Shown here one piece after another: positions 9,322-63,889 of a stretch of 64,000 nt of DNA (positions are counted from its first letter, which is position 1; each line of letters starts with the position of its first letter). Source of the stretch: Paramacrobiotus metropolitanus. Lineage: Eukaryota; Tardigrada; Eutardigrada; Parachela; Macrobiotidae. The translations under genes and the position numbers were made by a program. The notes beneath the pieces are model-generated. The model worked only from the letters and a program-made list of their open reading frames with translations. It made no database searches and was not told the origin of the DNA. The stretch lies in assembly GCF_019649055.1 (NCBI RefSeq), contig NW_026570305.1, positions 372,001 to 436,000 on the forward strand, in the 5' to 3' direction.

Positions 9322-9322
9322 T

Positions 9323-10329
9323 ATATCTATAATAATTAATGTATGTACGCGTACTAATAGAATGTACGTACGTAGAGCGTAATACGGGTACGAGCAGATG
9401 TTCGTGATTCGTGGCTACCATGGATCGAGTAGCAGTCTTGCAGATACGGTATGCCACGGTGGATACCGCTTACATAGCCGACACAGTACGGTAATATTCT
9501 ACAGCGGTTCCGGTGGCTGTCATCTATCCAGTAAAGTTCGAATCAGCGCATATTGACCAAAATATAAGACTTATATCACTAGAAGGATAAGTTATAAAAA
9601 GTGTAGTATTTTAATAAATTGGTAAAGGTAAAGAACCGTACCAGTACAGTGCAGATGACAATACTAATAGCGACGACGACAAGTCAGTTGCTTGCACCAG
9701 CTGGGATTGCAATGTGAAGCTGTATCTAGTATTGCATGCTAGATACTATACTATCCAGCTGGCTGGATATTACATTGCATACTAGATACTGTACTTGCTG
9801 TCAATAATACACAGTAAGACACCACGATACAATCGTGTGTGTACCGGTACAGTATCAATCTGCGGCTTATATAGATATAATGAGTTGTCGTCGTCGCTGC
9901 ACTATAATGCACCACGATGAAAACGTGCCTGTATTATTTTCCAACTGTTGCTACTGTATCACACGCCCACCACCTGTATTGTGTAGATTTGTTATTTAAA
10001 TGCAATACGGTTAATAATTCTTTGCACCACAGTGCAAACTATGTTTTCATTAGTACTGCAATCTTCAGTATCTCTAGTGACACTGTGCATTATAATGCAC
10101 CGTACTTTACCATGACGCAACCGTTTTTGTATCAGTACGGTGCAGATCTGCAAAGCAGACAAGAATTGAAAAGCTGTCGTCGTCGCATGTTTACCATAAT
10201 GCAATGCATTTTTAAAAAAATGTAAAAATGAGAAATCTCCACTAATTAGTCCTTTGTTATGCTAAGATCAGTCCACTAACACCGATTACCTAGCCGGTGC
10301 CGCGTCAGGGGGTTGGGGTTCTGGGAGGG
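9323..10329. other. AT-rich gap without a recognisable gene
   Basis: No conserved protein or splice structure is seen. There are short hairpins such as GTATCTAG/CTAGATAC near 9721-9746 and recurring GTCGTCG and TGCACCACGATG motifs, but nothing I can assign. Confidence 0.4.
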
Positions 10330-40553: not shown

Positions 40554-43500
40554 TCACAAACAATTTGAATTTTTGACAATTTTCAGGAGGATCTCGCGAA
40601 ATTCTGGACGATCTTCCGGTTGAATGCTCCAACAGGACGAAACCAAAGCTGCCCTGTAAAACGGATTTTTCATCAGCGGTTTTCATTAATCGTAAAAAAA
40701 AAATCTTCTAGTTAAGGTATTTATACAGAATATTTACATCCACTGTGGACAGATATCAGGAAGCAGCAACCGTTCGCCGCGCGCTATGAAGTCCAGTAAG
40801 ATATTCCACTGAATTCCCCGTGGAAACTCCTGCTCAAATGGGGACTTGCCAAACGTGAAACACTCCCACACAACAACTCCAAATGACCAGATATCGCTTT
40901 TCTCGCTATAGCGGCCTTCCATTGGCACCAGCGTCTCCGGAGCCATCCAACCAAGTGGCAACTTGACCTACGGAACAATCAAATGCTGTCGCCGCAAGCA
41001 TTTGTTGATCTCTTCGTTCTTCAGAAGCAGAAAGCGTATTTTTTTAATTCAAAATGCGTAAAAAAAGCACAACGGCCTATTACTTGGAGCTGTTCTGCAT
41101 AGATCAAGTGCTAAAATAAAGCCCTCCCCCTTTCGTAAATATCGCTTAATGTGTTCAAAACAAGCTTTGATTGCTTTATTTAAGCAAGAATCGCTAGTTT
41201 TTTAGTTTCAATAACTTTTTCTGGTGCGGACTGACTAGTGAACGCTCTACTCTTTCTTAGTAAAAATTGCTGATTTCCGTACATTCTGCCGCTGCAAGAT
41301 GTATTCGCTATCGTTTCTGGCCAGACCGAAATCGCCGATCTTAGCTATTAGACCGGAGTCCAGTAGCACGTTTCGTGCGGCAAGATCTCTGTGAAGAAAA
41401 CCGCGACTGGACAAGAATTCCATCCCGGATGCCATTTGATGTATGATCGAAAGCAGACTTTGTAGTTCGCTTTGTACAAATAAGCGATGTGCTTCAGTCT
41501 GGATGAGTTGATTCGAAGCCCGCCTTTTCAGATAAACGTAGTTGCTGTCATTGTGCAGATACTGCAGCAAGGATCCGTTAGCGCAGTATTCCATTACAAT
41601 CATCGGACGATCTACGAAAGTTTACGTTACGTTTTGCTAGAGCCAATTCGGCACAAATTATTATTGATAGCAGTGCGAGTTGTGTTGCCCTCTGAATGCT
41701 TAGAACTGATAAAACCTCCACTGAAACTGCATGTTTCTTGTGGAGTTCTTACAAATGCAGTACCTTTCAGTATCACTCCTATCAAGCTGACGATATTTAT
41801 GTGCCGGCCGATTAACATGAAAGCTCCCATTTCCGCTAGAAAATATCTCTCTTCCTCTGGAGTGTATCTGTCTGAAAGGAATTTCACAATAGCCAGAGTA
41901 GTCGCACTGCCAAAATGCTTGTCATGGGGCTTTGTTATTCGTGCAAATCCAACGTGGCAAAAATGGCTGGGCCGTAGTTGCTTGTTTTCTGAAAACGAGA
42001 CACGCTACCGTAGAAATTTTTAGGTTTACCTTTTCTGCCCAGATTACCTAAAGTACTAGGGTAGTTCTTTACCTAAAGTAAAAAAGTACTAGTACCGGTA
42101 CGTATTACTACAGAGTAGTTCTTTACCTAAAGTTACTGAATTAGTTGGTAACTCAAATTCTTCTAGCAGTGGAAAGGGTACCCCACATAAAGAAACCCGT
42201 TTGGAGTATTCCAACTGAAAAAGACAGCAGATTTAAAATCAAAGAGCTTATTTAACCGGCACGTAACAATTTCCAGTTGCCAATCACCTTTACTCCGTGA
42301 GCGTTACGTCAGTGTTACCTTTGCTCGGGAACGTCGATAAACGAAAATAGCACCCAGTATAGCAATTATGCAGAGTATTCCAACCAAATTTCCACAAATA
42401 GTAATAATTAGGTAATCTGCGTGCAAAAAGTCATCATTATAATCGTTAGCGTGTGTTAATAAAGCATCGTGTTTAACTGAAGGTTTCTGAAGGTTCGCTT
42501 ACCCGGTTTATCGTCCACAAGACCTATTTTAAAGTAAAGGTTACTACCGGTCTGATTTAAAAGGGCAGTAAAGATGTCAAACCTTACTATCATTTCTGTA
42601 AAATTGGAGACTTGTTAATTCGACGGTGGTTGCGTCTTCGAAGAATGTTATCGCCACACTTAACCAGAATATAGCGGGACTGTTGGTCAAATTTACAGCC
42701 ACTGACACAAAGTCTGGAATGATGTTGACTCCGCTGTCCCACAACAAGTGTGCTGGGAACGTCTCATTGAAGGCCATCCAAAGCTGCAGCTTCACTACTT
42801 TCCCTTCGGATGATCTGTAACCGAACTACGAACAAAACACAGGTGTCTGTAACGGCGCCCTCACCCTTTATTACAATTTTATGTCTAGACAAGGCTGTTA
42901 GTAATAATATGTTTATAGACAGTGGCGATAAAAATGGCTTTAAAATGACTGCTTTGTGTCAAATGTTTACTGCGAATTTAAATAATGGTTTGTAATTTCG
43001 CGGCTTTTAAAATGTCAACTGACTACTGAAACCCGGGAAGGAACGCACCTCAAAATAACACAATTTTGATTGATCACAGCTTGTTCTGGGACTACTCAAG
43101 TAGGATGTGATTTGTACATGCTGCACTCTATCACAACGGGCTATTACAGCATTCTTTCCGGATGGCGAAGCCGAACTATTCCATACTGTATGGTCTGCAT
43201 GGGAATTGGACCAACCGCAAAAGTTTGGCAATTCAAACTGGCAGCTGACACTTCCCGATGGAGCTGGAGCTGGTCCAAAAGAAAGAAAAACGGTACCAGC
43301 ATACACCGTTTTGAAATTACTGTGCAAATACCAGGTATACAGAAATGGCCTACCTAGTAATGGTCCAGTTTCCTTTTTCACTGGGATATTCTCTAGTGGT
43401 ATGAACTGATGCATATCCGCACAATCGGCGCCATGTTCTAGGGTCATACACTCATCTTCCAGACGAATGTCATCCATGGCTGCAATGTATTCTTTGCTGC

Positions 43501-46500
43501 TCACGGCGACTTCAAATACAAGCTGGAACATTTTTAGGCAGCAGTCAGTTTTAGATTGCATTGGTCATTACTCGTATTCAGCGTATTTAGTCAAATACTG
43601 GTAGGTAGTGCACTTGTACTGACCTTAAACGGAAATTTTATACAAAGGTCAAGCTGGACGTCTTGCCACATTCGTCCCGATGATCGAGTTGTGTTGGAAT
43701 CGGTAGAGTTCCACAGCAGAAAGTAGGTTTGCATACTGGCCGCATATAACCGCAAAAATTGTAAACCTGGCCCAAAAATGTACACTTTGAAATGCAGTTT
43801 CGCCTCAACTGGACCAATGTAGTCACTCTCCACTATGCTGACAGAGGGGCTAGTTCCATTGTAAACTAATCTTTTGTTCGAGTCCTGTGGGTAATTATTA
43901 GGAAGAGGGAACGGAAGAGTTTCTGTTATTAACCAACCAGAAGCGTTGCCGCTCTGGTGCCAGCTGCAAAACTCCGTCTGCTCGAAACCGCACGTAATGT
44001 GGCGATAGGTGGCACTGGAACATGTCTCTATGTACAACGAGCAGAAAGTTTGCAAACAGCTTAATATGATCGAGACTCTGTCGAGAGTTACATAAGTCTG
44101 CACAAGAAAAGCGCTAGTTTTCGGAATTTGTTACTCTTACAACAGTTAAGGATAAACCTACCATAAGAAGGCAACTGATCGGTTTGAGCATCTGGTCCAG
44201 ACCCTAATAAGTAAGGTGGCTTCGATAATACGATATAATAACACAGCGGTAAACTTATAATAATTACCATTATTTTCCATCGATATTACTCGAGTTTTTT
44301 ATCTGTAGTTCTACCTGCTTCTCCGGGATATCAGACGTCTCGAATAGCAAAGTCGGGATGGAAATTGTTTTCACGTTCGGCATCCGAGCCAGGTGTCGGC
44401 GGGAAAGAGGTGAGCCGGATGACAATCTGCACACCAGCGTCCAAATCAAACCACATGTACTGTTTTACCGAACAATATAAAGGACTATCTCAGTTTGTAT
44501 CTGGTATGAAAGCGAACATCGTTAATGACCTTAATGTTCCCCTTTTTACGATCCAATGCAATAACTTCTTTGTACCCGCGTCGTTGATTGTCTTCCGTGA
44601 TACTATACCGCACACTGTGCAGTAAAGTTTCATGTGAAGCTGACGCCGCTAAAATCTCCAACAACAAAGGTCGTCGGCGAACTGAATACCAAAGATGCAG
44701 AGTATCTCCCACTTTTACTTCAAATGGTGGACTACTTAGCTGAAAGCTAACATTGTTGGGACCAGTAGCGTTGTCTGCGCGAAAACTCAGTGCCAGTGCA
44801 TTGTAGAGATTATCGTTGACCAACTTATAACTCAAAGATTCTACTGCAGATGTCGCATCCGTTTCGTGACTAATCTGCCACCCACAAAAATTCGGGGGCA
44901 AAGCTTTGGTTAGCAGTGTACTGTCGCAGCTTATAGAAGGAGGCGATGGAACAGTGAAATAGTCATCACACGGGCTCGGCGTCGGAAAATCCACTCCATT
45001 TTCCTCGTTAAAAATAAGCTCGTCAAACCAGAAGCCGGTTGTATTCTCAACGTATCTCCTAAAAATTGCCGATATTCAGTGCGGTACCCTGGTTGAAGTG
45101 TCCGCATTACTTTCCAATCATTTACTTGTGACGTGTTTCTGGCGGTGCATCATCGATAACCACAGAAACGTGGATAGGGTAACCTGGTGATGAAACCCGT
45201 TGGCGAAAAATTCAGTGCTTTTTTGCCGTCACAGCTCGTTAACGTTTTTCGAAAGACATAAGAAATACAATGGCCAAAACGGCCATCAAGTTGTAAACGT
45301 GTGGCAGTGATTTTCGGACGATCCATATGAGCTACAAACATTTACAGACAGAAAGCCATAGCAAAATTTGAATCTGATTCTGAATCTGCAATTTGTGTTT
45401 TTAAGGTTCTCAAAAACATCTGAGTCGAGTAAAGTAGCATAAATGTGGTTTGAATCGGGCATGTACTCTGTATATATAGAGGCCAGGCAGGAAGCGCGCT
45501 AGCGACAGCCTGTCTGCGCGACTGCGCCCTACAACCGCATTCACCGCGACTGCTGTTATGAGTTATATAAGGCACACTCATATTCATGATTCGATTTATG
45601 CGAAAATCATAATTTCGTATTAAACCGATAACGAGTATGGAGAGCATAAACAACTAACAAGAGAATGTGCAATCCGTTTTGAAAAATTCCAAGCGGCTGT
45701 AGGTCGTGCCACACGTTTTTGCTCTTAATTACAACTTGATGCCTTTGACGAAAACATGCCGAAAAGTACTGAATTTTTATACTGTAGATTTCAGCTTCTT
45801 TCCTCCCCGGGTTTACCCTATCCACCTTGCCCACCCATAGTTATCTGTATTACCAGTAAAATCTTTTCTCGTAAATTTGCAGTCATTTCATTTTCTTAAC
45901 AACTGTTTTATCCAGATAACTGTTTACTTAATAGTACCATCAACCAAACGTTATTGGTAATTTGAAAGAAGCAGTTCGACTCTATGAGACTCACTGGAAC
46001 CGTGCACTTAGCTCCAGTGTGTATTCTCCGTTAATGCAGTAGGTAGCACGAACAAATTCCCAAACTTCCGAACGGCTCGGCTCGTCCTGTTTACGGATGC
46101 CCCATAAAAACGCCGCTGTTGACCCGTCCTCACGTTTTGCTAGCACACTTGCATACTCGATATATTGGTCAGCTCGGTAAGCAAAAAATAATCGCGCCCT
46201 TCCCTTGCCCCGAATTTTGGGCGACACCAGACCGAACAGGTATTTGCCAGCGCTTTCCGGCTTTTTCAACATAAGAGCAGCAACGGCACCGGTTCCTTGA
46301 TACGGTGTTACCGCTGCATAACTCGAATAAATGTAAAACTTCTGATCGCTGTTCAGTTGATTCCAACCGCACAAGTTTCTGTCAAATGTACAACTGGCAG
46401 TGGGAATATGCGGCAGGTTGGTTATCAGCGGTGGCAAATATTCTGCGCACTGACTGGATGGTTTGGCATAAACACTTTCATTAAGCAAGCTTATGCGTGG

Positions 46501-49500
46501 CAGTCTAGCCGAGCCCGTCGGATAGGCGTGCTCGACGATTAATCGAGCGGCACGCAGGGGCTGCAGAATGACGGCCCTGTTGCGCGCAAGGAAACCAACA
46601 AACTCTTCTGAACGATTAGCATGAAGAATCTTCACGATTAACCTATTGCCCTCCATCTGAGTGGCTCCAGTCCAATAAGCATCGGTAAGGTTGGTCGCTA
46701 CTTCAAGATCGAAGCAAGAACTGACCAAGCGAGCAATCGGGACGAGCACGTCAGTGCGTGATTCGCTCGCCACAAGATCAACTGTACCAGGCTTGGCGTA
46801 GTTCGTAGCATCCGCAACGTTTTGCGGCTTCCATCTAAAACATTCAGCAACGTGTTAACAGCAGCACTAGTAAATGCAGCAGACAAATGTGTTATTACGG
46901 TTAGAAGACATGCAGTTTTTGAATACGTTTTTTGCGACCATAGTACTCACTTTGACGAAACGCCGCGATCGCTCCAGCCACAAAGCGACTGGTCGAAACT
47001 GCAGGTCACACTGCCACAGGGAGTACGAGACAACGCATTTTCGTCCACCATTTCCCGGTAAACAAAATCATCAAACCTCACTTCTGCACCTCGGAATTTG
47101 GTTGTTACTAAAAAACGCAGTGACGAGCCGACAGACATGCAGAGCCTGAGCTCAACCGATATCCATTTCCTTAAATCGGCATCGCCGATGCTGTTCGGCA
47201 GTTTCCTTTCCCACACAACCATGCTATCATAAGCTTCGCTAACAAACAGGCGCAGTTGCTGAACGCCATTTCCACCAAGATAGTACCGGAAACTGAACAC
47301 GACGTTCGTTGTCACTTGAAAGGGTACAGGAACGCTTCCTATTACCATTTCGTAATTTCTGAATAATGGATGGATTAGGTTCGCATTATGCCGGCCCACT
47401 AGATAAGTGGATTGCTCGGATGTCTCCAGTTTAAAACCGGAGTCAAAATATTTTGTCCATCCGCACAAATGGGTATCGAAGCCGCAAGATATTGACTTGG
47501 GTTCACTGCTAAAATAGTTCGGACTCGGAAGTGACTCTGTAGAAGCAGAATGTCAGATCGTATGCGGCACAGCAACCGCTTATTAAAACTAATGCAAAAA
47601 CGACAAATAAACTACAGAAAAAAACATTCAGACTTTCGGTAAGTACGGGCCAAGACATTCAGACTTTCGGTAAGTACGGGCCAAGTTCACCTTTGCTTTT
47701 TCGTTGCCTTTTTTCTCTGCGCCTTTTTTAACAATACCTTTAATGTTACCGCTTCCGGTGACCACTGTGGGCGCTGGAACCCCGGCTGCTGGGCGACTGG
47801 TACCCTCGTGAGCGGCTGTGTGCGGTGACCGTGGGTCAGCGAGAAGCCGGCCGACCGGGGGTCGGCGGAAGAGAGCGACCAATGCCCTGCGCAACCGAAG
47901 GCCCCTTTATTGAGCAACGCGAAATAACAACAAAGAACAGCAGGGTATGGTGGGTGGTAAAGAACAAAATCACGCGCGCGCACACGAACAGAAATGCAGT
48001 GACAGAGCAAATGCAAATGCCGAACCAAAAGCAGAACCAAGTGCGGGCACAGGAACAGTGCCGAGTGCAAACGGCCGTCGTCGGCGCGTGTAAGGCGGCG
48101 GCCGCTTAGATCTACGCGGCCGTAGCGGCGCAGCGCCACCACCGATTCAGGTAACAGACTACAGAAGGCGAAAAGAAAGAGCGGGAGTACACAACCTCCA
48201 GCTAACATTAAAACCAATTAACGTCGTTAATTGTAACTTACTTTTGCCGCCGCGAAAACCGTACCGTCCTAATCAGCCTTCCGAAAAAGCCGTTTGAAAT
48301 AACCTTTACTGTTTGAAATAACTTTTACCGGCTTACAGCGATGACACACTAGCGTCAATAAAGTCCAGATACGGTAAAGTGCTTGACGGGAGTCCATCAT
48401 GCAATGGTTATAATCGACGGTAAAGGTTATTTCAAACGGCTCTTTGAGAAGGCTAATTAGGACGGTAAGTTTTCGCGGCGGCAAGGATAAAGGTAATGTT
48501 GAGAAAGGCAAAGTGAGCAGGCAAAGGCAAAGGTAAACTTGGCTGGCCCGAAAGCGGCTGTTATACGTTTTATGCGATACTGACTTTTCAAAATCTACAT
48601 AGGGGGCAAAACCAGGCATCTTCCACCGTTCCCCTGTACTGCTGCCGTCATCAAACTGGGGTGTGACTTTGTGGCTGAACATGGCGCTTACCTACCACGC
48701 CAGATTTAACTATATGTACTGCCGTAACGTTTCACTCCAGGCGGGTGACGGCAGCAGCACAGGACAACGGTGGAAGACGCCTAGTTTTGCCTTTTATCTA
48801 AGTACCTTACAATAAGCCATTTACTTACCGTAGGCAGAAGTTATCACATTGTCTATAGCAAAAGCATCCATGATTCGGCCATAGACGAAACGAAATACGA
48901 GCCATCCGTTCTCTTCCAGAACAATTGGCACTTGTGCGGAGTACCACCGCATGTCATTGTCCGACACACCCTGAAAAATCTCACCCCGCAGCATCCAGTG
49001 CAGAATATCTCGCTTAGTGGCATCGATATGCCGAAAGCTCAGCATGAGTGTTCCGTATCCCTTGGGTACAAAGTACCAAAAACTAACCAACAGCTTTAAA
49101 ATGGTGTTATGAAGCTTCTGCGGCAAATGCCGGCTGTGGAGTTCCGTCCAGATTTCCCGATTGCACGTCCGGGCAGCGTTCGAAGTATACATGAAATGCG
49201 TTCCTACCAGCAGAAAAAGCTTAATTGGCGAAATATTCGTTGATTTTAATTTTTAATATATCAAGCATGCGAATGCAGACTTGTCATGAAAAACAAAAAA
49301 AAAAAACAACTTTTTTCCGTGTTCCTTAATATCACGACGATCCAGTATTACAATTAAGCGTTTGATTATTTTCGTGCCATGGGTTCAAAGAACTAACCGT
49401 CAAACGAGAACAGATTCTGGTGTATGTGATCCTGTAAACCATGCGTTGTTGTCGACGTCCATGAAGCAGTGGGGACATTGGAGGTAATGTTCCAGCCCGC

Positions 49501-49680
49501 ACAAAGACCACTATCGAAACTGCAGGTGTATTCAGTAATTGTGGGATTTTCAGCGCCCGATGCAAGTGGCGGTGATCTGCAAAGACCAAACGCAGCAAAG
49601 GCAAAAAGCATGAAGCATCTGCCTGCCAGTGTTTTTGAAAACTTGCACCATTTACTACGAAACAAGCGGATAACCAACAT
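40554..49680 (-). CDS. MAM-domain receptor tyrosine kinase 1 (18 exons, one in-frame TGA)
   Basis: Minus-strand exons: 49398-49680, 48829-49203, 46951-47536, 45995-46834, 44530-45058, 44315-44426, 44162-44203, 43624-44027, 43354-43522, 43049-43269, 42588-42825, 42503-42523, 42319-42416 (TM), 42127-42214, 41764-41988, 41283-41611, 40738-40967 and 40554-40653. All phases agree. After the signal peptide come seven MAM-like modules, each opening with a CxFDxxLCGW-type motif. One TM helix ([19 protein letters not shown]) precedes the kinase: VAIK-type Lys in [26 protein letters not shown] and [12 protein letters not shown]. The P-loop reads LRPSHFCHV, with no glycine. Exon 44315-44426 has TGA at 44331-44333 where the paralogue has Trp. 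It is a type I membrane receptor; its ligand is unknown. Confidence 0.8.
47640..48820. repeat. Nested inverted-repeat insertions in intron 2 of receptor kinase 1
   Basis: A 31-bp tandem duplication (CATTCAGACTTTCGGTAAGT...) opens the region at about 47638-47697. Degenerate inverted repeats rich in GGCAAAGG pair about 47680-47755 with 48490-48560. Inside is a 65-bp inverted pair (GCCGCCGCGAAAAC ends, about 48244-48310 with 48418-48485). A third pair with GGCATCTTCCACCG ends spans about 48617-48782 and shares a motif with the element at 4891-5024. The GC-rich core (47750-48120) is unlike the flanking gene. These are probably non-autonomous DNA elements. Confidence 0.55.
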
Positions 49681-50404
49681 TCTTCTAGTAAAACGTTTTC
49701 TTACAGCAAACTACATAACATTATCTGTACGAATGCTATGCTATATGTCCATAGCTTTAATTTCTGAACTGCTTAGATCATAGCGGTGCTGTGGCCCTTA
49801 CTATAATGTGAATTTGTTTATCCAGTTAACCTAAAAATCTAGACGTCCATACACCGCATTAAAATGCCGGAACTTTCATTTCATGACCGCATTTCTGTAC
49901 TCATCATGCAAACTTGCGCGATACGTATTTTCAATACGTAGTGATAAGCTCAGAATTGCTGACATAGTTCAGAAAATGGTTATACCTGCCACGAAAATCT
50001 TTTCCTCGGTACGCTTATCAACTGCACTGTTTAACTGAAGGATGCGCTCATTCGAGGCCGGAAATCCGGGTACATTTCTATTTTTGTTTGGCGAATATGC
50101 GGCCGACTTCGACGGCTATAACCCCATTTGATGTCATTGCACCAACACAACAGTAAAGAGTCGGTAACTTTGTTAAGCTTTACCGAGGGTCTGAGACAGT
50201 CTGAGATAAGCCTGTTTGTTTAGTAACCGACACTGGATAAACATTGGATATCTGCACAACAGTCCTTTACCCTGCTTCAAAGCAACAATACCGCAGTGTA
50301 TTATTATTTTCTGTGACGGCTGCCTTTACTCGAAATGCTTATTACTTTAATGATGCCGGCTAAATCAGTTTCTTAGACAACAATTTGACCATCGCAACCT
50401 AGCA
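49681..50404. promoter_or_regulatory. Shared divergent promoter region of receptor kinases 1 and 2
   Basis: The start codons of kinase 1 (minus, 49680) and kinase 2 (plus, 50405) face away from each other across 724 bp with no other gene, so both promoters must lie here or in upstream untranslated exons. I see no clear TATA box or operator that I would assign. Confidence 0.4.
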
Positions 50405-53400
50405 ATGACTGTATTTGCAGTGTACTTCATGTTTTGTAAGGATGCCTGTAATCTAATGGATGTTTTAAAAATAACCGTTTCTGCTATTATTTTAACAGAT
50501 TTCCAGCATTTAAATGGAGTGGTAACTCAGTTCAAAGGTCTCCGCTTGATCAAGAATTCCCCCTCTTTTGTTGACAATTCCCCCGAAAACGCAGTCCAGA
50601 ATTTAGATCTTTCTTGCGGCTTCGACAAGGATCTGTGCTTGTGGTCAAACCAGCGCAGTGCGTCCGCGACGTGAGCAAAACGTTGTTTAGTTTCAATTTA
50701 CAACCAAACCTATTACTGCAGAAATATTTCCTGCGCGTATGTTGCAGGTTCCGGCGAGTGGTGCCGACATTTACTCCCGACCATGGCTTGACTGGTGTTC
50801 ATCCGCATTTACTGGCCAACAGTACTTCATGTGTGCATATGACGGTGGCTCGCCTTTTAAGTCCTTGCATAACTATCTTAAAAAGCACGCAAATCTTTTT
50901 AAATTACACGACCTCAAACTCCAAGTACGACACAGATCTGAAGATTATACGATGGGCCAATGGCAGGAGTTCGATCGTAAGAGATAACGTTTTGCAACCG
51001 GGTAGCAGTGCCCGCGTGCTCCTTCAAATCGTTCTCCATCCCGGAAAGTTTTTGCAGCTGTATAATATATCGATGCAAAATGCAGGCCAGCGTATTATCG
51101 CCGGTGACGCCTGTACTGAATTCCCTGCAGAACCTTTGTTAACCGAATACCCCCAGGAATCGACGCTTTCCTGCAGTTTCGATCGCAACTTTTGTGGTTG
51201 ACGCCTACCGTCTGAAATTTATGCCGGTCACGTGGCAATAGCCCGAGAACTGTATGACGACGACGAGGGGGCTTTCGTGCGTGTGCCGAAAGTGGGAAAT
51301 GGTGCCGTCGTCCTCCGGCCCAGTGCGGTTCCACCGTTCAATGGTTATCCGTGGCGTGTCGGGCCATTTTACTCGCCGCGGCTGGTGCAACTACAGCCAA
51401 CCGTCCTCTTTTTCTACTATCGCGCACATGGTTATATAACTCGGATCACGCTTAAAGCGGAGTATACCAATAGCAGTAGTGTCCTCTTATGGAGTCATAA
51501 GCGAAGAAGCGACGTCGACTGGGTATTTGAGAAGGGCGAGTCCTGGATGCCTGTTCGCATTCCTCTCTGTCTTCCCGGTCGATTTCGGTTGGCCTTCGCT
51601 GTGAATTATGAGTACGTTACATTTCTCAAATTTTCGAATATTTAATAACGGTTATGGCTGGAGCAGATATCCAAAAATGTCTTTCTGGCTGGATGAGCTA
51701 ACGGTCGACAACGAGAACGGGAGTTTTATGACCTCCGAGGACGCTTCCGCAATACTGAATTGCTCCGTAACAAATCTTTTGCCGGAAAAGTCCATTAGCT
51801 GTGATGCACCTGTGAGGAGCGATGGTGAAGTTGTGTTCTGTGGATGGCAGTGTCAGAGCGCTCCAGCCAGTAGTTCAGATCTGCGCTGCAGCGTGGCGAG
51901 TGTGGGAGCTGGTGAAGATTACCAGGTCGTTTCAGCGCTCAAATTTGATGCAAGTGGAGTTACGCTTGAGAAAAAGAAGAAAGCGTCCGTAATTAGTGAA
52001 GCCTTTCTGGTGTCAACGGACTCGCAGCTGTACATTTCCTATGTAGCAGTTGGAACGCCTTTTCGGATTGTTGTTGCAGTCAGAAACACTGATACACCCA
52101 CTCATGAGGACCGCTTTTGGTTAACCGTGAATGAAACCAGTTTTACCGAAGATGTCACTCAATGGCTAGGTCATTACATATCTTTTCCTCCACATCTAGA
52201 CCATCGCATTGTTGAGGTACTTATGTACTGTAGCTGTAGCGGTTTCTCTGCTGATAAATGATCACGTTTCTCTGCTCTAACTGTCTGTACACTGTATACC
52301 ATATAAATTTTCCATGTGTAGCTAGTTTAACGCTTTGGCTTTTGGTTTAACGCTTTAACGCTTTTTTCTCGTGTTTTTGAAAGGTGCGAATAACGATAAC
52401 GTTCTCGATCATCAAAAGAGATCCACCTCTTCCTCCGGTATACTTTGCTATTCGCAGTATGTGGTATACTGCAGAGAAAGGTCAGACGTTGCTAAATTAT
52501 TGTGCAACATGTATTATTTATAATAAACCGAAACTAGTTTTTTCTTAGGTTTCGGTATGAACGAGCAGATCGACCGGCTGCCGGTAGCAGGTAGGTTGTT
52601 TAGACAACAGATAGTTATCGAATAAAATGTTAGTTTGCGAAGATTTTACCTGGGTTTGGCAAAGATTTTGGAAAATGGCAGGCAACTCGTTTTCGTGATA
52701 TCTTTAACTCTATCGTTTCACAGCGTCATGTGACAGTTCCGGCTACGAAAATGTTACCTGCAATTTTGAGCACGAAGTATGTGATTGGCAGACGAGTGGT
52801 TTACCTCTCCGCAACAACAGTTCCATTAGCGGTTGGATGTGGGCGTCGGAAACTGTGCAACTGAGAAAAACATTTCCAGTAGCGGATAAGAGCATACAGG
52901 AATTGCACACTAGTTATCATTTGCCTATAAAAAGCCAGCTACAATTCGCATACCGCGTTGATGGACGTGGTCACGCCCTGCTGGGTCTGCTAATTCGGAC
53001 AAAGGAAAATTATTTCAGGTTGTGGCATGTTCCGTTGACGACGCATACACAGGAGGGACTTGGTCAGTGGAACACTGTTCTAATCGATGTGTGTGTGAAG
53101 TTTCCGTTCCAGGTACGAACTGCTTTCCAACACAGCTTACTCCTGTTGCCGTGATCGTACTGTTTAGTAGCTTGTTTTCCAAGTGGCAGTTGCTTACGGA
53201 GACACTGCGATAATGCTGGATGACATCGTGTTGCAAGATGAATGTCAACCTCTGGAATACAATGCAAATTGCAGGCAGCTGGATATTTTGACATTGCCAG
53301 TGGGCAGAATACCTGTGGAAACTGAAATTAGTTAGTATAACGCATAAAAGAATTTATCGGCTCAAAAAACCAGCTTTTTTCATTTCGCTAATCAGAGCAG

Positions 53401-55891
53401 CAGTTAAACGGAGAGCTAAGCTGCGCATTTGACAACGACCACATGTGTGGATGGCACAATAACGATGATACGCAACTCCAATGGCACTCTGCAGAAGACC
53501 CCGATGCTTCGAACAACTTTGTCGCAAAGCTAGAGTGGGATAGTTCGGCAATAATGTTGCCTTCTTTTGCATACCTTGTTGGCTCGCAAATGCCGGCACA
53601 CGTGATCCCGAACAAGGTCTGTGATCAGCTTGAATTTCAGGTACGTGATTGATTGTCGGCGTGTCTCAGTATTCGCTCACGTTTGGTTTTCCTTGCTTGT
53701 TCAAGCTTGAAATTTCACCTTATAGTTCAACATCTCCATCAGCAATCATCAGACCGTTCATGTGGAGCTCTATATAGCCCACAGCGGCAGTCTCAAACCA
53801 GAAAGCATATTGTGGAGTTCGAATTCGATATGTTCTACTAATCGAACATCAAGCGTTGTCCGGCTGGTATTGCCGGAAGTGGACACTGCGGAATCTTCTC
53901 AATTCGTTTTTGTTGCCACTGTGGTTGATACACGGGGCTTTGTTTTGCTAGACGACATTCGGCTGAACCTTATCACCGGTAAATTTTTTTGTTTACTACT
54001 TAGAGCCTAGAGGTAAGCGTAGGTTTCTCTAAGCTTGGTTCGAATTTGTAGATCAAGGGAAAGGTTGGAAGAGTAAGACGAATTGACCGATTTTTTTTTC
54101 TTGATCAGTCTGATTCTGCCTATACGCTAACGACAAAATGGTGCTTACAGTATTTTTGTCTGTCCTTTTCGTTGCCGTTCTGTACACGGGCTGTTTTTTC
54201 CTAACGCGGAAAAATACAAAGGTAAGGCACACAACCGTAGTACAGTTTATTGAGACTATATTGCTGCATCTGCCTGTATTTATAAGCTGTAATGCTTACT
54301 AAACTACGTACATATATGCCTTATTTAGGTTTCGGATTTAAACCGACAGCTATTGCTTGGACATGTACCGCTACCACTACTGGAGCAATACGAGCTACCG
54401 TACTGGTGGTTAAAGTTTGGTATGTAGGAAAGTTCCTGAAATCAGGTTAAGCACAGTTTTATGAATAAAAAGCCCTCACGTCTTCCAGCGAATCAAGATT
54501 TGGGAAAAGGTCGTTTCGGCTGCGTGCAGGTAGCCTGGATATCGCAAAAGCAAAAAATATCCCAAGCCGTTGCCGTTAAGGGTTTGCATCCCCATCACTC
54601 GATTCGCGACAGAGATCGCTTTCTGGCCGAGATGGCACTGTTCATGAAAATCGGGAAGCATAAGAACATCGTGGAGCTGATTGGAGTCACGACTCAAGGT
54701 TGTTAGGAAACAAACAATGACTTTAAGAGCAACGCATGTAACAAAGAAAACGACGCGTTGCTTTGGCTGCAGATTTAACCATCGTCATGGAAAACTGTGT
54801 CGGTGGATGCTTGCTGGAATTTGTCAAAAAGGAAGATAATTTTCCTTCCTGTAACGCTTTTTTGCATGAAGAATATTGTGATGACAGAGACATGTCCAGA
54901 GAAGCCACTCGACTTCTGGTCTTCCCTTACGATGTAGCTCGTGGAATGGATTTCTTAGCAAATCGGCATATTATGCATGGCGACCTTGCCGCACGCAACA
55001 TACTACTGGATGCCAAATTAAGGGCAAAAATCGCAAACTTTGGACGTGCTCGGTTCGAAGGAGACTTGGAAATGGTCGCCGAGAACGAAGATGTACGTAG
55101 GTATTCGTTAACTTTCAGCGCATATTTATATATATATATATAAAATTATTATATATATGCTTTCCGCGCAGCGTATTCGCTTATGTTTAAGTCGTTTCAA
55201 AGCGAACAGCGCCTGCCACAAACATTTATGCAAATTACGATACGATGAAAACAAGAATACGAAAAACAAAAACAGCCAGCATTTCTCAGTTGAATTATTG
55301 TCAGTTTTTCGGCACATAATAGACATTTGCGGTTGTAATCTTCATACGTCCTCATGCTCGTACAGCCGTACTTGCAATAATTATTACGTACAACAAGGAC
55401 TAAGGATAAATTTCTTTGTTTTATTTGAGAAGCTTCTTTGAGACAGAATCCCCTCCCGGCGCGGTGGATGGCTCCCGAAATTCTGACATCAGGATTTGGC
55501 CCTTGTCAATGTCGAAGCGATGTCTGGTCTTTTGGAGTCTTAGTATGGGAAATTTTTACACTGGGAGCCAAACCTTACGACGATATCGTCAACACCCAGG
55601 ACTTGACGTGTGCAGCGCTGCTGCAGTATCTTCAAACTGGTCACAGGTTGCCAGCGCCTCGCCTGCTGCCAGAAGCTCTGTATTGCATTTTGACTGCGCT
55701 TGATTACGGGGGCGACGCTGGCGATAACATTGTTTTTTTTCCACAGATCAGGGAAAGTCGGCAGTTGTTGGAATATATCGCCGGAAGAACGACCGAACTT
55801 CCGAGAATTGGTGGTCGTGTTCGCCGATGCCTTGCCAACGGAAGTCAAAGACGAATACGTTGCTTGTGGCGATGAACGTGCAGTTACTTAA
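50405..55891 (+). CDS. MAM-domain receptor tyrosine kinase 2 (predicted pseudokinase)
   Basis: Exons: 50405-50670, 50748-51611, 51667-52216, 52384-52480, 52549-52590, 52724-53112, 53171-53330, 53396-53640, 53726-53978, small exon(s) near 54003-54068, 54109-54221 (TM), 54329-54419, about 54457-54698, 54773-55092, 55447-55679 and 55747-55891. Five MAM-like modules are present; the two N-terminal ones of the paralogues are missing. The signal peptide is weak (possibly from Met 50459). The kinase keeps the P-loop LGKGRFGCV, the Lys in AVAVKG and WMAPE, but HRD is HGD and DFG is NFG, so Mg-ATP catalysis should be impaired. TGA at 51199-51201 replaces the Trp of the FCGW motif, and another TGA (54111-54113) precedes the TM helix if phase 1 holds. 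The phase between 54419 and the next exon is unresolved. Confidence 0.75.
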
Positions 55892-56602
55892 CGAGTCTTA
55901 ATTACAGATTTTTTTTCTGAGCTAAAGTTTTTTTTAATTGAATTACATCGGGTACTACACAAGTAACAATTATAGATAGTGTTCACAGTACGTTGATTGC
56001 TTGCTTCATCATTATTTCGCTACTAAAAGCACAGCCCTATTAACAAAGGTGTTGCGTATTGTAGAAGCGGCAAGTTCTGTGACTTCGTGCGTATGTGAAA
56101 TTTGATGATAACAAAGAAAAGGCAAACAAATAATTGCTCCAACCAAAACAATTCGGGAAAATGGAAACGCAGTTGATAGCGGCTTAGTAAAAGACAGTAA
56201 CAACGTCACCCAGTGTTTGAGTTGGACTGCCAATGCGGAACTTCTTATCGATAGTAACTGTGATTAATGCAGGTTGTTCAAATCACCGGCAATTATCTAC
56301 ACAAACACTATTGTTCCTGTTTATCTCTTGTCTTGACGGTGCTGACAAAGCGCTTCTCGGTAAACCCGTCTGAGAGATTCCGTAATATTTGTTAGTTTAG
56401 CGCCAGAAAGAATTAGCACCAGAGATAGGTTGCAGAAAAGAGCATAATAAGCTGCTTCGGATACTCGGTAATGTTTTATGACGAAAAACAGGCAGACCTT
56501 TTTCCAAGGCTCAGTGCATACTATAACAGCCTTTGTAGTCATGAAAACCTAAACCGTAGACGATTCTTCTGAGTCAATCGACGCAGCACAAGAACTCAAA
56601 CA
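55892..56602. other. Spacer between receptor kinases 2 and 3
   Basis: It is 711 bp, AT-rich, and presumably holds the kinase 2 3' UTR and kinase 3 promoter. Nothing else is recognised. Confidence 0.4.
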
Positions 56603-59600
56603 ATGAGTTGCTGTGTTCTGTCAAAATACACTACATGTATGTATCTTTGTGCTTTCATTGCGTTGCGGCAAGTGATTACGATTAAGGCGGAGAGCATAGC
56701 CCAGTTCACCTGCAATTTTGATAGCGGGTTGTGTCCCGGTTGGCAAACTGCTACTAGCACTGCAAGTTCATCCAGGAACTGGACATCAACAACTGCTCAC
56801 GATCAGATTGATCACAGACACCAGAGTCTGCTATCTTTCGATGGTAAGTATTAGCTAGTATCATAGCGACTGTGGTTAAATTTAAATAATTAAAACTTTA
56901 TTTGATTGGTCTGTGTGAACGAAGCCGATGAGCCACGACTGGCGAGTTGTTCGGGTTTTTTTTAAATTGGACGGTAGTCAGTCGGTGATGGAATAACTTC
57001 CTAAATTTGAATAAATTAGTCCATGGACATCCTCTCGATCGATCGTACGTTCTGACCTCTCGTTTCTCATCCGCACATCCTTTTTATCCAGAGAACACAG
57101 TAAGATCTTTTCTGGTTACTGTACATCGTAATTAGACCACCAACATCGGTCTGTAAAGCGTCGTGGCGCGGCGAATAGCCAACCCACAGTAAACGGGAGC
57201 CCATCTTAAGGCTTCCATTGTAGTATGTAAAAAAAATTAGTACAACACTACAACCCAAGAGTGTCATGCACACAAGGGCAGTTATTTTTCAATGCTTTAT
57301 GCTGTTTTGAACATAAATTTTTTAGGGACGCATTTTATTTATACACCGAGGACAGTACGGCAAACTGATGAAGATGTCTGGGCTGAAATTATCAGCGATT
57401 ATTTATCTTTACCGGTTGGAAGTCCTCCATACAACATCGTTGTCAGTTTCTGGTATTTTGTCCCAAAAGGTTACGGGACGCTAATGTTGAGCTTCAGAGA
57501 TACCAACGCTGTTTATGGAAATGACAGTATTCACTGGATGATAAGAGACAGAATTCATCACAGTTATCCGGACCAAAGCATGAAGTGGTATTATGGACAA
57601 GCACCGCTCCTCATTAGCCAAAGCGGCTGGATTGTATTTCGGGTCGTGCACGGCCGCATTATTGACTCGTTTGCCTTGGATAATGTTGTAACAACCAAAG
57701 ACGGTAATGTTTATATTAAATTAGAGCACGTTCATGCTTTTGCTTTTTTATGATAATGACAGTAAATTAATTACTTTATCCGTTACCGTAAGAATCTGCG
57801 TGAGGCAGGAGATACTCCGTTTTAAATCGTAGCAGCGAATATAATTATGTATAATGTTTGTAATGCAGCTTTAACTGAAATTAACTGAAAGACTCGAAGT
57901 GTATAAAAATGAAAACGTGCTTTTCCATACCAAAGGAGTTGCTGACGGAGACTTAATATAAAAACCGCGAAATGTACAGCAGAAACATAATGCAACGTAA
58001 TGATTTCGTTTCTTCCTCAGTAGATCGGCTTCCTATTAACCTACTGGTGAGTCACGTGAGTGCAACCCGAAGAATATCTTGTGGTTTCGAAATCGATTTG
58101 TGCGGCTGGATGAACCACTTTGATAGCGATTTCCGCTTGGATCCATCAGAAAGCTCGACGTCTCTCACAGGGAAGCATAACGGAAGCCTGCTTCATCCAA
58201 TCTACAACAATCGGGAGCTGATCCTGGGAAGTCTCCCTGTGGTTTCGCCCACTTCACTAAGCAAGGTTTTTAGTTTCAAATACTTTGTCAGCGATCGCAA
58301 AGTGCAGCTGTTGCGGCTATTCGTCAGTGAATGGTATGACAGCATGGTGGTCTGGGAGATCAAACCCGGGTCGGGCGATGGACTCGTTGGGATGTGGACA
58401 ACAGTGACACTCACACTGTGCATGCCTGCAGGCGCGTCGTTGCGTTTTTTGGTTACCACAACAGTGGCTGATTCCGCAGTGAAGTTTGATGATTTTTTGT
58501 TGCGCACGGATTACAGCCAAAACTTGACTTCTGCTAAAGAATGCCATCGAATAACGTGCAGTTTTGACCAATCTACTGTACGTGTGGTTGGGCTGATCAC
58601 AGCGTGGTGGCAAGGTAATTAAAGGTTTCCACTGATTAGGGTACTGGATAAACAGCTGGCAGGTGAGGACTAAGGAGTGGGCATTTAAACTTCAAGTAAC
58701 TGATAATTTTTGGATCTGAAGCAGGTGTTTTTTCTCAATTTTTATATATTAGTCACTGACTCACTGTAAAGGAAGTGTGCCGCTACATGAATTTTAAACG
58801 TTATTCTAAATTTTTTAAAAAGTAGGGGGAAATCTGATTTGGCGCAAAAACGATCTTTATGCTAATGTCTGCTTTTGTACAACATTTAAAGAGGGTCATT
58901 GATATGGAGACTTTTCGAACACCTCAGTGCGTTTAAACTTCTTGAACTTATTTTACTCCAAACTCACCAACCGGAATTTGCGCGCACAAACCGTATCCAA
59001 GCCAATGTATACAAATCAATCATTTGGCTAGGGAATGTCATAAAACAATGCAGAAAAGTTTTTGGGAGGGCGCATATGTACCTGAATTTGGTACCATGTA
59101 AGTACTGACACACTTCCCTTAAAACTTTTTTTGCCAGTAACATCCGTATAACGGAGCTACGGTTACAAAAAATTATATTTTAACAGAAACCGATGAAACT
59201 ATGGATTGCATTGACATAAGATTGCATTTTTTAAACTGTTTTTTTTAAACTGTTTTTTTTTAAATTGCATTGTATCCAAATTCCAAATCCTGAAACGCAT
59301 ACAATTAACCTGATGTAACACATTTTTCTTTTGATGCAGATGGAAGCAGACCAGCGTTGCCGATAGTATGGACTATTCTAAACCCGGCATAACCGATTTT
59401 GTAGCAACCGGCACAGCTAACGGTGTTGTGCCTGTTGCGCGTCTAGTTAGCCCTTGTGTGGACCTGGAAACATCAAGCACGCTCAGCGATGCTTATTGGA
59501 ATGGTGCGAGTCAGATGGAAGGAAACAAGGTCGTGGTGAAGTTGTTCCACGCCAACCATTCGCTGCAGTTCCATGGCATTTTGATTTCCCGCACCAGCGT

Positions 59601-62600
59601 CGCACTGCCACCAGTGCAGGCCGTCCGCATAGTCATCGAGCATCCCTTTCCCACAGGCTTCGTCCGGCTCCCACGAATCACTTTGCGCAAAGAAAGCGTC
59701 GTGGCCAAGCTTTCCGACCTTTGTCCGGAATTTCCGATGCCACCTCTAATAACAGAGCAGCCACACATACTGTCTGTCAGCTGCACGTTCGATAGGAATT
59801 TGTGCGGTTGGACAAACTCAGATTCCCAGCAGAAGTTCTTTGTATATCCAGGCTATGGCGACGTGGTTGCGTTTCAGGGCGCGGGAGCCGCTGCGGCTCT
59901 CATGATCAGTGCAGACAGTGAACCACGTTTTGGACCGCTGGTGTCGCGAACCATTATGGGCAGCGGAAGGACACAGCTATTTTTTACTTACCGAATGGAT
60001 TACCATGTCCAATGGGCCAGTATCATTGTTAGGCCCCACGATGGGTCCAAACCGCTCTTAGCATGGTACACCAGTGTTCTGGACGAACTGCATCACGTAA
60101 ATGTGTGGCAGACGGTTAGAGCATCGTATTGCTTCGTTGGCAATTATACCTTGGAACTGACTGCACACTTTGCGTAAGTTTGCTCATCATCACAAGTACC
60201 CAGATTTCGCAATTGTACAGATACGAGCAAATGAAAGTAGATTTCCCGAGCATTGTCAAATTTACGAACACAAAATATTGAAAATGTTTACTGTAATCAC
60301 TTTCAGGAAATATGAGGATGACATAACAGGATTTTGGGTAGACAACCTAACTCTGCAACCAGAAGAAATTGCAGTTAACTTGATTCCAGACCTATGTAGC
60401 ACCAGCGCTTTCAGTAAACCGCTAATCTCAATAACCTGCGACAATTCCATGATAACTACATCCATTTCTCGTAAATTCTGTGGGTGGCAAGTCGATAGTG
60501 ATGGCAATGCGCTGGCAGCCATAGAACCACTTGCGTATGGTTTTTATTTCCATGCCTACGAGTATAACGCTCTGGCGCTATGCTATAGAGTGATCAGCAA
60601 CACCCATCCTAATGCCGTCAGCTTCGATCTGGTCAGTCCGGAGTTCCACGTCAGACCGAATGACGTGCTGCATTTATGGTATTCCGTCCGTCGGCGACCA
60701 GCATTTATTCGAATAATGGCCACAAGTGCCGAAGAGAGCTTAACGCTCTACGAAGCGACACACGACGATGCACAGGATAACAACCAGCAAGGATTTAAAA
60801 AGGTCATTTCTCTAGGCTCTCTAACTGGACCAACCAAGGTAAGTATACAATTTGTTCTGAGATGCTATTTGTTTTCGATTAGAGAAAGAGAGCAAAGAAT
60901 TTTTCCACCTAACACTGATGGTGATTGAATCGCTGTCGCAGATTACTATCAGAGTTCGATCACTACCTCCAGAGTCCAACTCTACAGCTGCGCGTCCAGG
61001 CAATTCCAATCCAGATTTTGCCGTCAGACACATATGGTTTCCTCAAGAAGAAGGCGAGCGAGTTTCATGCATTCACCAGTATGTAGATAGTTAAGTAATA
61101 AAAATTTTATTAACGTTTAGGTTACAAGCCGGAAGTTCAAATTGACAGACTACCAAAATATGGTAAAGCTTTTCAAGTAGTTCGGTGTTTGTTGTTCATT
61201 AAAATTTCATTTTCGTTTTCCACAGAAACCTGCAAAGATACCAGCTACCAAAATGTGTCTTGTACCTTTGAAAAATCTGATTCGTGCGTGTGGTTCCGTA
61301 ATATCAACCACACCGCCTGGCTAGCAACAGACCAGCCGTATGGCACGTTTCCGTTCGTGTTTCCTGATCAGGATTTACGGAAAATGAACAGACGTCTTAT
61401 TTACACTGGATCACAGCATTCTATCGGCACATTAGAGAGCAGTTACATTGGTCCTGTTCAAACGAGATTTTCCTTCAAGGTGTACATGTTTGGAGCCGGT
61501 TTACGATATTTGAGCTTGCATGCGGAAAGTATGTCCACGTATTATTTGCTGTGGAATTCCACGGAAAATACCACTACGAGACCGTCGGCAAGGCAATGGC
61601 AAACTGTAAACCTGGAACTCTGCATCAAGTTTCCTTTTAAGGTCAGTTAAGTTAGACTATTTAAAAAGCTTTACGCAAACTGAAAATGTTTAAGAGCCAC
61701 GACTAAAACGGTATTTAAATTTCAGTCCACTTTGGTAAGTTATCTTTTGGTAAGTTATCCTTGTACTTTAACTTTACAGCTTGTATTCAAAATTTCAACC
61801 AGCAAAGCGCCATACATAGCGGCACTTGATGACATTCAGCTAGATAACGAGTGCACAACGCTGAAGCACGACGTTGATTGCAAAAATCTGAAACCTTTCT
61901 CTCCTCCACAATCGATTTTAACCAGCGCAATAACCAAACCAGCGTTTTGTAAGTTGACCGCATTAATTTTCTAAATTACTAAGCAAATTTCGGTTCTTTT
62001 GTGCTGTAGTCGCATGGTCCTTTTGTGCTTTAGTCGCTTTGACAGCACCGGCACCAGCAGGCACTTTGCACTGCATGTTCCACGAGCTGGACTTTTGCGG
62101 ATGGTACGGCATCGATAACGAAAGTTTAGCTTGGAGCATTGTGCCGTCCGGCAACAAGAACGAGACAGCAGCCGCAGTGTTTTGCTCCCGACTACCAGGG
62201 CTACTGACCACGGCTACGGCTTACCTCATTAGCCCAAAAGCAACGTGCAGTCAGTGGGCCTTCTGTTTTTTCGAGGTAGGTGGTTGAGAACTGAGAAAGC
62301 AAATATCTCCGGAGTACTCTACGTTTCTGTACAATAGGAATAACGCGATTGAGCAGGATTTTCGTTCTGCAGTTTGAATACCGATCTTCCCAGGGTTCGG
62401 TAGTAGAAGTGCAGCTGTGGATGGCCTCAAACAAGACATCGTCAGCGCATTTAGCATGGGGAAGCGGACCGAACGAATTTCCGTTATACACCAGAGTTAC
62501 CGTGAACTTGAGCAGTGCACCAGGAACATTCTGGCTGGTTTTGTCTACCACTTTCTTTGAGGACGCATCCAACGTTCAAGTCAGAAACTTCAACTTCTTT

Positions 62601-63889
62601 GGAGACAACGGTGAGCACTAGCAGTCTTTGACGCAGGCAACAGGGCTTTCCGCTAATTCATTTAATTTACAATACTGCTTTATGGCAGGGAACGGGACGG
62701 CTAAATCGGGTAAGACTGGATCGACTAGATTTATTTAAATGTTATGAAATTTACACGTCAGAAACTGTATGCGTGCATATCCTGCTTGCGTAGATTATGG
62801 TTTCATTACGCTTTCTGGCAATATATTGGGAGGCCTTAGCATCCTGACCATTATAGCGGGTCTCCTGCTTTTTCGGTATTATCGTGCTCAAGTAAGTAAT
62901 CTCGTACAATTATAATTTAATAGTGTTACAGTGGCAAGTAAGCCTGTTAAATATAAAAGGGAGTTGAGGAATGGTTAGAAAATGCTGCGAAAAATGGGTT
63001 AACAGAAAAGAAATACACATCACCAGAAAGTAAACTAGTAATGGATTTACTGTTCATTCCAGCGGGATTACTGCAAACGATTGTATAACTGTGAAGTACA
63101 TCCATTCTTATTCGAAGAACTGGAAATCCCGAGCAGCTCGATAACTCTTTGTTAGTGCTGGGAAATAACATATAAGTTACATGCTTAACATATAAGTTAT
63201 ATGTTTGACCTTTAGTGAACAAGGAATTAAGAAGGAGCCACTTCTGTCAAGTGGGACTGGCACGAATAACAAAACTGCACACGAAACACTTCGTTCTTGA
63301 GAACACAACCGTTGTCGTCAAATTTTTGTTGGATAAATGCTCTCAAGAAGAGGAGCGGTACTTTCTAGCGGAAATGGCAGCCTTCATGATGGTGGGCAGG
63401 CACAAGAATATCGTCAGTTTAATTGGGGTGATTCTTAAAGGTATCCGCATTCACACCAAGAGCGAAGATACTAATCATAAAATACGATCACATCTGGAGG
63501 CAGACATCAAGTTATATAATCCCTGTTGCTTGTGGTTAGCATCAATATGTTTTGCAGGCCGTCCGATGATTGTTATGGAACACTGTGCTAATGGATCCTT
63601 ACTTGAGCATTTGCAAAAGAAAAACAATTATGTTGGCCTGAAAATGGTTGGATCCGTTCATACGATCCAAAAGACAGATTTGCACAATGTTTCTTCTCGA
63701 GACGAGCTGCAAAGTTTGCTTTCGATCGTATACCAAGTTGCAGCCGGAATGGAGTTCCTATGTAGTCGCGGCTTTCTCCACCGCGATCTCGCCGCACGCA
63801 ACGTACTTCTGGACTCCAGTCTTACGGCTAAGATAGGCGATTTTGGTTTGGCCAGAAATGACAGTGAATACATCTTGCAGCGGCAGAAT
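56603..63889 (+). CDS. MAM-domain receptor tyrosine kinase 3 (3' end beyond window, one frameshift)
   Basis: Exons: 56603-56843, 57326-57703, 58021-58614, 59340-60173, 60307-60838, 60942-61053, 61121-61162, 61226-61641, 61780-61948, 62034-62275, 62373-62610, 62689-62709, 62794-62891 (TM), 63063-63150, 63216-63440 and 63558-63889; the C-lobe exons lie past 64000. It is a close paralogue of kinase 1: many exon lengths are identical (112, 42, 169, 238, 21, 98, 88, 225). It has a signal peptide, seven MAM-like modules and a TM helix (GNILGGLSILTIIAGLLLF). The kinase has [14 protein letters not shown] and DFGLAR, but a glycine-free P-loop LRRSHFCQV. Exon 58021-58614 is 8 bp longer than its counterpart, with a 5-base insertion near 58580 that shifts the frame at the third module's CGW. 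The donor after 61053 reads GC (GCGAGC) instead of GT. Confidence 0.8.
58969..59100. repeat. Dispersed repeat, empty-site copy of the 14.4-kb repeat
   Basis: It shares GCGCGCACAAAC, CCAATGTATAC and GAATTTGGTACCATG with 14455-14900 in the same order but lacks the 281-bp hAT-type MITE. It lies in intron 3 of receptor kinase 3 (58615-59339). Confidence 0.65.

Follow-up and report, generated by a model that had tools for sequence, protein, structure and literature searches.

Among described receptor tyrosine kinases (RTKs), ALK and LTK combine MAM modules, one transmembrane (TM) segment and a tyrosine kinase domain; according to the available part of PMC6274813, the two MAM domains of ALK flank an LDL domain, and a glycine-rich region is also present. 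Receptors with a degraded nucleotide site and a possible heteromeric role form a second point of comparison and include the HER3–HER2 pair, PTK7, ROR1/2, RYK and STYK1. The present analysis concerns a 64,000-nucleotide stretch of the genome of the tardigrade Paramacrobiotus metropolitanus (contig NW_026570305.1, here C85, positions 372001-436000; ‘the window’), in which self-comparison revealed three paralogous RTK genes, K1 on the minus strand and K2 and K3 on the plus strand. An earlier note on this DNA had proposed that three paralogues with MAM-like modules, a TM helix and a tyrosine kinase domain carry complementary kinase defects. The architecture was confirmed, with seven (K1), five (K2) and seven (K3) modules, and the complementarity was found to extend to an activation-loop Tyr and a C-terminal tail motif, but complementary catalytic death is not well supported. 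Instead, a reciprocal specialisation of two neighbouring receptor types is well supported by the sequences. We tentatively interpret these genes as members of a lineage-specific (tardigrade) family of multi-MAM RTKs with an FGFR/KIT-like split kinase, whose two old types, A and B, would have been kept side by side and would work as partners.

Two receptor types across the genome

Queries from all three window genes, namely a kinase stretch of K3, a MAM exon and the loop exon of K1, and the catalytic exon of K2, were run against the whole genome (169.8 Mb in 533 contigs). This identified at least nine family genes in three clusters, located on C85 (K1, K2 and K3), C38 (A1, B1, B2 and A2) and C8 (A and B). 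A kinase tree of 19 rows was reconstructed from the nine family genes and 10 of 13 outgroup kinases fetched from the same genome (L012b, L024 and L026 were left out). K1, K3, C38_A1, C38_A2 and C8_A (A-type) formed one clade and K2, C38_B1, C38_B2 and C8_B (B-type) another, each with support of 100/100, and the two types together were separated from the remaining RTK rows with support of 90/88 (midpoint root only). Both types were present in all three clusters, in the order A, B, A on C85, A, B, B, A on C38 and A, B on C8; K1 and K2 lie head to head, as do the two C8 genes, and the C38 cluster consists of an A–B unit followed by an inverted B–A unit. For C8_B, the MAM part (from C8:926 kb) and the kinase part (950 kb) are inferred to belong to one gene. 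The ectodomain and kinase parts are about 18 kb apart (C8:929.5-947.7 kb), and a stretch between them that the exon model included looks retroelement-like by eye.

In all five A-type genes Ser and Cys replace the second and third glycine of the glycine loop (SxFC), and Arg replaces the first in three of them, leaving two or three glycines lost; besides K1 and K3, the loops read LRTSHFCRI in C38_A2, LGESRFCRV in C8_A and, following an insertion, GMDSRFCRV in C38_A1. The catalytic Lys, Glu, HRD, Asn and DFG and the loop Phe are kept in all five. The loop loss that the earlier note had reported for K1 and K3 is thus real and runs through every A-type gene found. Human receptor pseudokinases differ in having lost at most one loop glycine and in carrying other core changes, as far as the available part of PMC13259870 goes, whereas the A-type genes have lost two or three and retain HRD and DFG. 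All four B-type genes possess GxGRFG, three of them HGD and only K2 NFG (C8_B, GQGRFG/HRD/DFG; C38_B1, GEGRFG/HGD/DFG; C38_B2, GAGRFG/HGD/DFG; K2, GKGRFG/HGD/NFG).

The activation-loop Tyr was present in five of five A-type and none of four B-type genes, and the C-terminal YxxC motif in four of four B-type and none of five A-type genes. Among the other RTKs of the genome the Tyr was found in nine of 10 rows and the tail motif in four of 10 (C10a, C63a, C63b and C6a; several others have a missing or short last exon), so the absences in A and B look like losses. As all four B-type genes lack the Tyr and only three lack the Arg of HRD, the sequences suggest that the Tyr was lost before the Arg. 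This order fits the regulatory role of that Arg, which holds the phosphorylated activation loop. Because the Arg is regulatory, HGD alone constitutes no catalytic defect, and HGD was ruled out as a mark of a dead kinase, two HGD paralogues (C38_B1 and C38_B2) having kept DFG; the claim of a catalytic defect in this motif was not borne out. Judged from the sequences, the NFG of K2 is the only classical pseudokinase change in the family. C8_B combines GxGxFG, HRD and DFG, a combination that had been named beforehand as telling against the proposed complementarity; as this gene is fully canonical, divergence was stepwise and complementary defects were not the founding state.

For the kinase domains of K1 and K3, dN was 0.196 and dS 1.49 (dN/dS about 0.13), indicating that constraint persisted, whilst the six further pairs for which values were computed showed saturation of synonymous sites over the whole domain. 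By this comparison the loop change is old, since SxFC is common to paralogues at saturated synonymous distance.

Kinase domains and glycine loops in the window

All three window genes matched the tyrosine kinase family PF07714 well above its Pfam cut-off of 23.1 bits, as had been expected: the K1 catalytic exon scored 91.5 bits, K2 exons 46.2, 66.9 and 70.1 bits, and K3 119.1 bits on a frame that runs through two exons and the intron between them. When the best 60 of 1123 PDB sequences matched by the K3 kinase with phmmer were inspected, they represented FGFR1/2, CSF1R and KIT, kinases which have a kinase insert, as the window receptors do. They also share a similar juxtamembrane motif, but have immunoglobulin ectodomains and intact glycine loops, whereas the window family has MAM modules and SxFC or HGD.

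A six-frame regular expression (regex) search of the whole window revealed one GxGxFG loop, that of K2, and two SxFC loops, those of K1 and K3 (Table 1). The N-lobe exon reads LNKELRRSHFCQV in K3 and ANQDLGKGRFGCV in K2, and the entry phase is the same in K1, K2 and K3. The K3 loop aligned without a gap to that of FGFR2 (phmmer), which, together with the matching exon phase, rules out a misalignment hiding the glycines. The phase-consistent exons support the earlier description of K1 and K3, in which all three loop glycines are replaced and Lys, HRD and DFG are kept, and that of K2, with a kept glycine loop, HGD and NFG, was likewise verified. K1 and K3 retain the β3 Lys, the αC Glu, HRD, Asn and DFG; the Ala that precedes this Lys by two positions has become Ile in K1 and Val in K3. 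If pseudokinases are defined by loss of the VAIK Lys, the HRD Asp or the DFG Asp, K1 and K3 retain all three and K2 is classed as one by its NFG.

That an alternative exon provides K1 and K3 with a canonical glycine loop, as the earlier note had envisaged as a possible refutation, is exceedingly improbable: no spare canonical loop exon for either gene exists in the six frames of the window, where the only GxGxFG is that of K2, the Cys in place of the third glycine is situated well within the exon, and the exons of all three genes share their entry phase. It is rather unlikely, too, that the A-type proteins are ordinary active kinases which tolerate an unusual loop and stand in a relation of mere neighbourhood to B. 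Their complete set of catalytic residues with activation-loop Tyr and loop Phe, and the low K1–K3 dN/dS, would favour activity, as would ILK, in which side chains replacing two loop glycines contact the ATP phosphates, ILK itself being a pseudokinase (available part of PMC4718504); the additional replacement of the Ala before the β3 Lys in K1 and K3 argues the other way.

MAM ectodomains

The expected MAM family (PF00629, Pfam cut-off 26.4 bits) was recovered with 58.6 bits in the first 848 residues of the K1 model and 49.6 bits in the first 659 residues of the C38_A2 model. Four single ectodomain exons remained below the cut-off (16.1, 19.8 and 20.8 bits, and no match for a K2 exon), and homologous C38 exons exceeded it singly. 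The first 520 residues of the C38_B2 model had no PF00629 match, and the B-type modules are consequently MAM by homology to A only. Module starts detected by regex numbered seven in K1, six in K3 and four in K2; MAM3 of K3, which contains a frame break, and module 2 of K2, which contains a TGA, were recognised by eye and complete the totals of seven, seven and five. The architecture is thus distinct from the two MAM domains of ALK/LTK, as previously suggested, and no LDLa match was present in the scanned part of K1. Compared with the C38_B models, the first module is apparently absent from K2.

An AlphaFold2 (AF2) model of K1 MAM2 showed a jelly roll (pLDDT 65.7), for which Foldseek ranked LAST-MAM first (E 0.0022) and the neuropilin-1 MAM second (E 0.0036), with no match at or below 0.001; other jelly rolls tied in VIA-align, GOLD and TNF-like folds among them, with Z < 8. 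The predicted structure of MAM3-4 (A2) had a pLDDT of 36.3 and was set aside. Elsewhere in the genome, a protein with multiple MAM modules akin to those of the receptor ectodomains is predicted on C75:420001-430000 (minus strand); no kinase was seen in the stretch read, and MAM matches on C75 were located mostly at 395 to 494 kb.

Reading-frame lesions

An in-frame TGA was found in K1 at 44331-44333 (minus strand), at a position occupied by Trp in paralogues (for instance IWF or VWY; by eye), in K2 at 51199-51201 (plus strand), replacing the conserved Trp of CGW, and in C38_A2 within FCS*Q (fetched piece L005, 4885-4887, minus strand), where paralogues again have Trp. The frame of K3 is broken at 58575-58582 (plus strand), before the CGW of MAM3, placing the CGW frame at net +5 nt relative to K1 (by eye), and the phase of the following exon fits the shifted frame. 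A systematic stop scan of the family printed 26 places, of which two (K2 and C38_A2) were convincing and the remainder were assigned by visual inspection to introns or exon ends. Internal stop symbols in the C38_A1, C38_B1 and C8_B models were taken for split-codon artefacts, and there may be further lesions elsewhere in the family.

On these sequences the window trio may be non-functional. That its members are decaying pseudogenes or null alleles, in which case NFG and other private changes would say little on function, is a doubtful but real possibility. The two TGA codons and the frame break point in this direction, and so does K2 with its NFG and apparently missing first module; yet each gene, roughly 1,200-1,600 codons long, showed a single lesion, with the frames otherwise open, and assembly error is a possible source of the lesions. 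The SxFC loop, moreover, being shared by such distant paralogues, is old and cannot be attributed to recent decay.

It is very unlikely that the TGA codons are read as Trp, by UGA to UGG RNA editing or by readthrough. All three convincing in-frame stops (K1, K2 and C38_A2) are TGA where paralogues have Trp, and TGG to TGA represents just 6-14 % of the nonsense point changes that could arise, according to the transition bias assumed, which makes three of three odd, but the sample is tiny (n=3, one by eye). Local RNA folds at the sites were unremarkable (z -0.37, -1.15 and -2.10), the K3 lesion is of a different kind, a base-call error would yield the same pattern, and an A that follows a G is poorly suited to editing.

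Gene models and locus

Exons were predicted with a home-made Viterbi model, several micro-exons of which look like artefacts of lesion avoidance. A frameshift-tolerant Viterbi run flagged breaks in nine of nine family genes, many at exon ends, but itself missed the TGA of K1 and the frame break of K3, and the breaks that it flagged in the kinase parts of these two genes were contradicted by hand splicing. Spliced by hand, the pre-TM, TM, juxtamembrane and kinase exons of K1 (42523 to 40554, minus strand) form one open frame to the stop, as does K3 from the pre-TM exon to the stop (62689 to 64393, plus strand, window numbering), the latter gene extending past the window end to C85:436393; in K2 hand splicing was confined to the part from TM exon to catalytic exon. 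The splice sites shown for the three genes are GT-AG with matching phases, and each spliced frame reads through a single TM segment that separates ectodomain from kinase. By self-comparison, K1 48824-49252 is conserved with K3 57319-57708. The K1 exon carrying MAM4 has 50 % identity to K3 59338-60171 and 10 matches in its own genome, including itself.

Near the receptor cluster, an astacin-like metalloprotease copy was identified by Pfam at 37935-38390 (minus strand). Similarity to this copy revealed others at 33320-33691 and 24508-24693 (both minus strand), and one more was seen by eye beyond the window end (fetched piece L001, about 2250-2900).

Table 1. Positions of receptor features in the window (window numbering) and of PGRP-RTK genes elsewhere in the genome
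Gene	Feature	Position	Strand	Basis
K1	Exons 1-2, signal peptide (by eye) and MAM1	48829..49680	-	Exon models
K1	Exon, MAM2 and start of MAM3	46951..47536	-	Exon model; AF2 jelly-roll model
K1	Exon, remainder of MAM3 and MAM4	45995..46834	-	K3 similarity
K1	Exons, MAM5 to MAM7	42588..45058	-	Exon models and module-start regex
K1	TM exon	42319..42416	-	Hand splicing
K1	Juxtamembrane exon (EEFELP)	42127..42214	-	Hand splicing
K1	N-lobe exon: LRPSHFCHV loop, AIVK, αC Glu	41764..41988	-	Hand splicing and six-frame scan
K1	Loop LRPSHFCHV	41951-41977	-	Six-frame regex
K1	Catalytic exon with activation-loop SEYILQR	41283..41611	-	Hand splicing
K1	C-lobe exon	40738..40967	-	Hand splicing
K1	Last exon and stop, without YxxC tail	40554..40653	-	Hand splicing
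K2	Ectodomain exons, five MAM-like modules	50499..53978	+	Exon models and regex
K2	TM exon (acceptor cttacag)	54151..54221	+	Hand splicing
K2	Juxtamembrane exon	54329..54419	+	Hand splicing
K2	N-lobe exon: canonical LGKGRFGCV and VAVK	54489..54698	+	Hand splicing and six-frame scan
K2	Loop LGKGRFGCV	54500-54526	+	Six-frame regex
K2	Catalytic exon: HGDLAARN, NFG, without activation-loop Tyr	54773..55092	+	Hand splicing
K2	C-lobe exons and tail KDEYVAC	55447..55891	+	Exon model, not hand splicing
K3	Signal peptide (by eye) and seven MAM-like modules	56603..62709	+	Exon models and regex
K3	TM exon	62794..62891	+	Hand splicing
K3	Juxtamembrane exon	63063..63150	+	Hand splicing
K3	N-lobe exon: LRRSHFCQV loop, VVVK, αC Glu	63216..63440	+	Hand splicing and six-frame scan
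K3	Loop LRRSHFCQV	63227-63253	+	Six-frame regex
K3	Catalytic exon	63558..63889	+	Hand splicing
PGRP-RTK	Genes in fetched pieces	L009:7197-9994; L010:3101-7149; L011:6667-9515		PGRP upstream, same strand
PGRP-RTK	Genes in fetched pieces	L012:1133-4333 and 6250-9408; L022 (-); L024		PGRP upstream, same strand
C63	Head-to-head PGRP places	751.6-753.9; 785.2-786.9; 790.7-792.8; 798.6-800.5 kb

RTKs with PGRP ectodomains

Exons for peptidoglycan recognition proteins (PGRPs) were located upstream, on the same strand, of the RTK exons in seven of the 13 fetched outgroup kinase genes (C89, C63 and C6). No PGRP match was present across several kilobases upstream of two C10 kinase genes; four more genes had no match in the about 1.2 kb or less upstream (L021, L023, L025 and L026). 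Three predicted PGRP pieces scored above the Amidase_2 cut-off; for one of them bumblebee PGRP-SA was the top match in the PDB (E 7.9e-27). Only in the two L012 models could a TM stretch be made out by eye between the PGRP and kinase parts. The genome contained 49 PGRP exon matches. At four places on C63, minus-strand PGRP exons are head to head with plus-strand PGRP exons, each upstream of a kinase match.

These receptors resemble the A/B family in their similar split kinase, having the activation-loop Tyr as in A and, on C63 and C6, the tail as in B; they differ in that PGRP replaces MAM, and the glycine loop is canonical where recovered. Tardigrades have been reported to lack Relish homologues (available part of PMC7056985).

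Discussion

In the partnership that we tentatively favour, the MAM ectodomains would bring A and B together. The A-type receptor would bind ATP weakly or not at all, acting as allosteric partner and, through its activation-loop Tyr, as substrate, and B, freed from activation-loop phosphorylation, would supply phosphotransfer and the docking Tyr. Such an arrangement would be a HER3/HER2-like division of labour. The available part of PMC13259870 describes HER3 as an allosteric regulator of HER2 and EGFR in heterodimers; that of PMC4718504 states that loss of Gly52 lowers ATP affinity and that an intact loop with VAIK has been the best past predictor of activity.

Several observations weigh against this partnership. 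Tandem duplication alone can give A/B adjacency and explains part of it, and the catalytic residues of the A-type, unneeded in a dead partner, are fully kept. Because K2 has NFG, a K1–K2 or K2–K3 pair may hold no working kinase, and each window gene has a lesion as assembled. The tails of the C89 models (RYVLF, QYIAF and RFIGP) are without Cys, and one is without Tyr, so the tail motif is not universal among relatives; finally, the kinase tree being unrooted, the order in which the losses occurred is inferred. As the sole B gene of the C85 cluster is NFG and every gene there has an open reading frame lesion, the C85 version of the pair is probably weakened or in decay, and the clusters on C8 and C38 are better candidates for function.

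No description of a multi-MAM RTK or a PGRP-RTK was recognised in literature searches judged from titles and abstract openings, and the available part of PMC8662651 contains no mention of MAM, tardigrad or peptidoglycan.

The A-type loops provide a graded natural series of glycine-loop loss (LGES..C, then R.S..C) with the catalytic residues kept, within a receptor pair that has mirrored losses at the loop, the activation loop and the tail. This makes it testable what the loop contributes when the rest of the kinase is kept, and whether the Arg of HRD is freed once the activation-loop Tyr has been lost. A wider proposal, which we consider unlikely as it stands, is that tardigrades evolved obligate two-part receptors encoded by neighbouring genes, A without ATP gripping and tail and B without the phospho-switch, and that these and their PGRP-RTK relatives may as a whole constitute an innate-recognition system based on tyrosine kinases. 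The RTKs with PGRP ectodomains are perhaps more surprising than the MAM receptors, and they suggest that microbial recognition may feed straight into tyrosine kinases in this animal.

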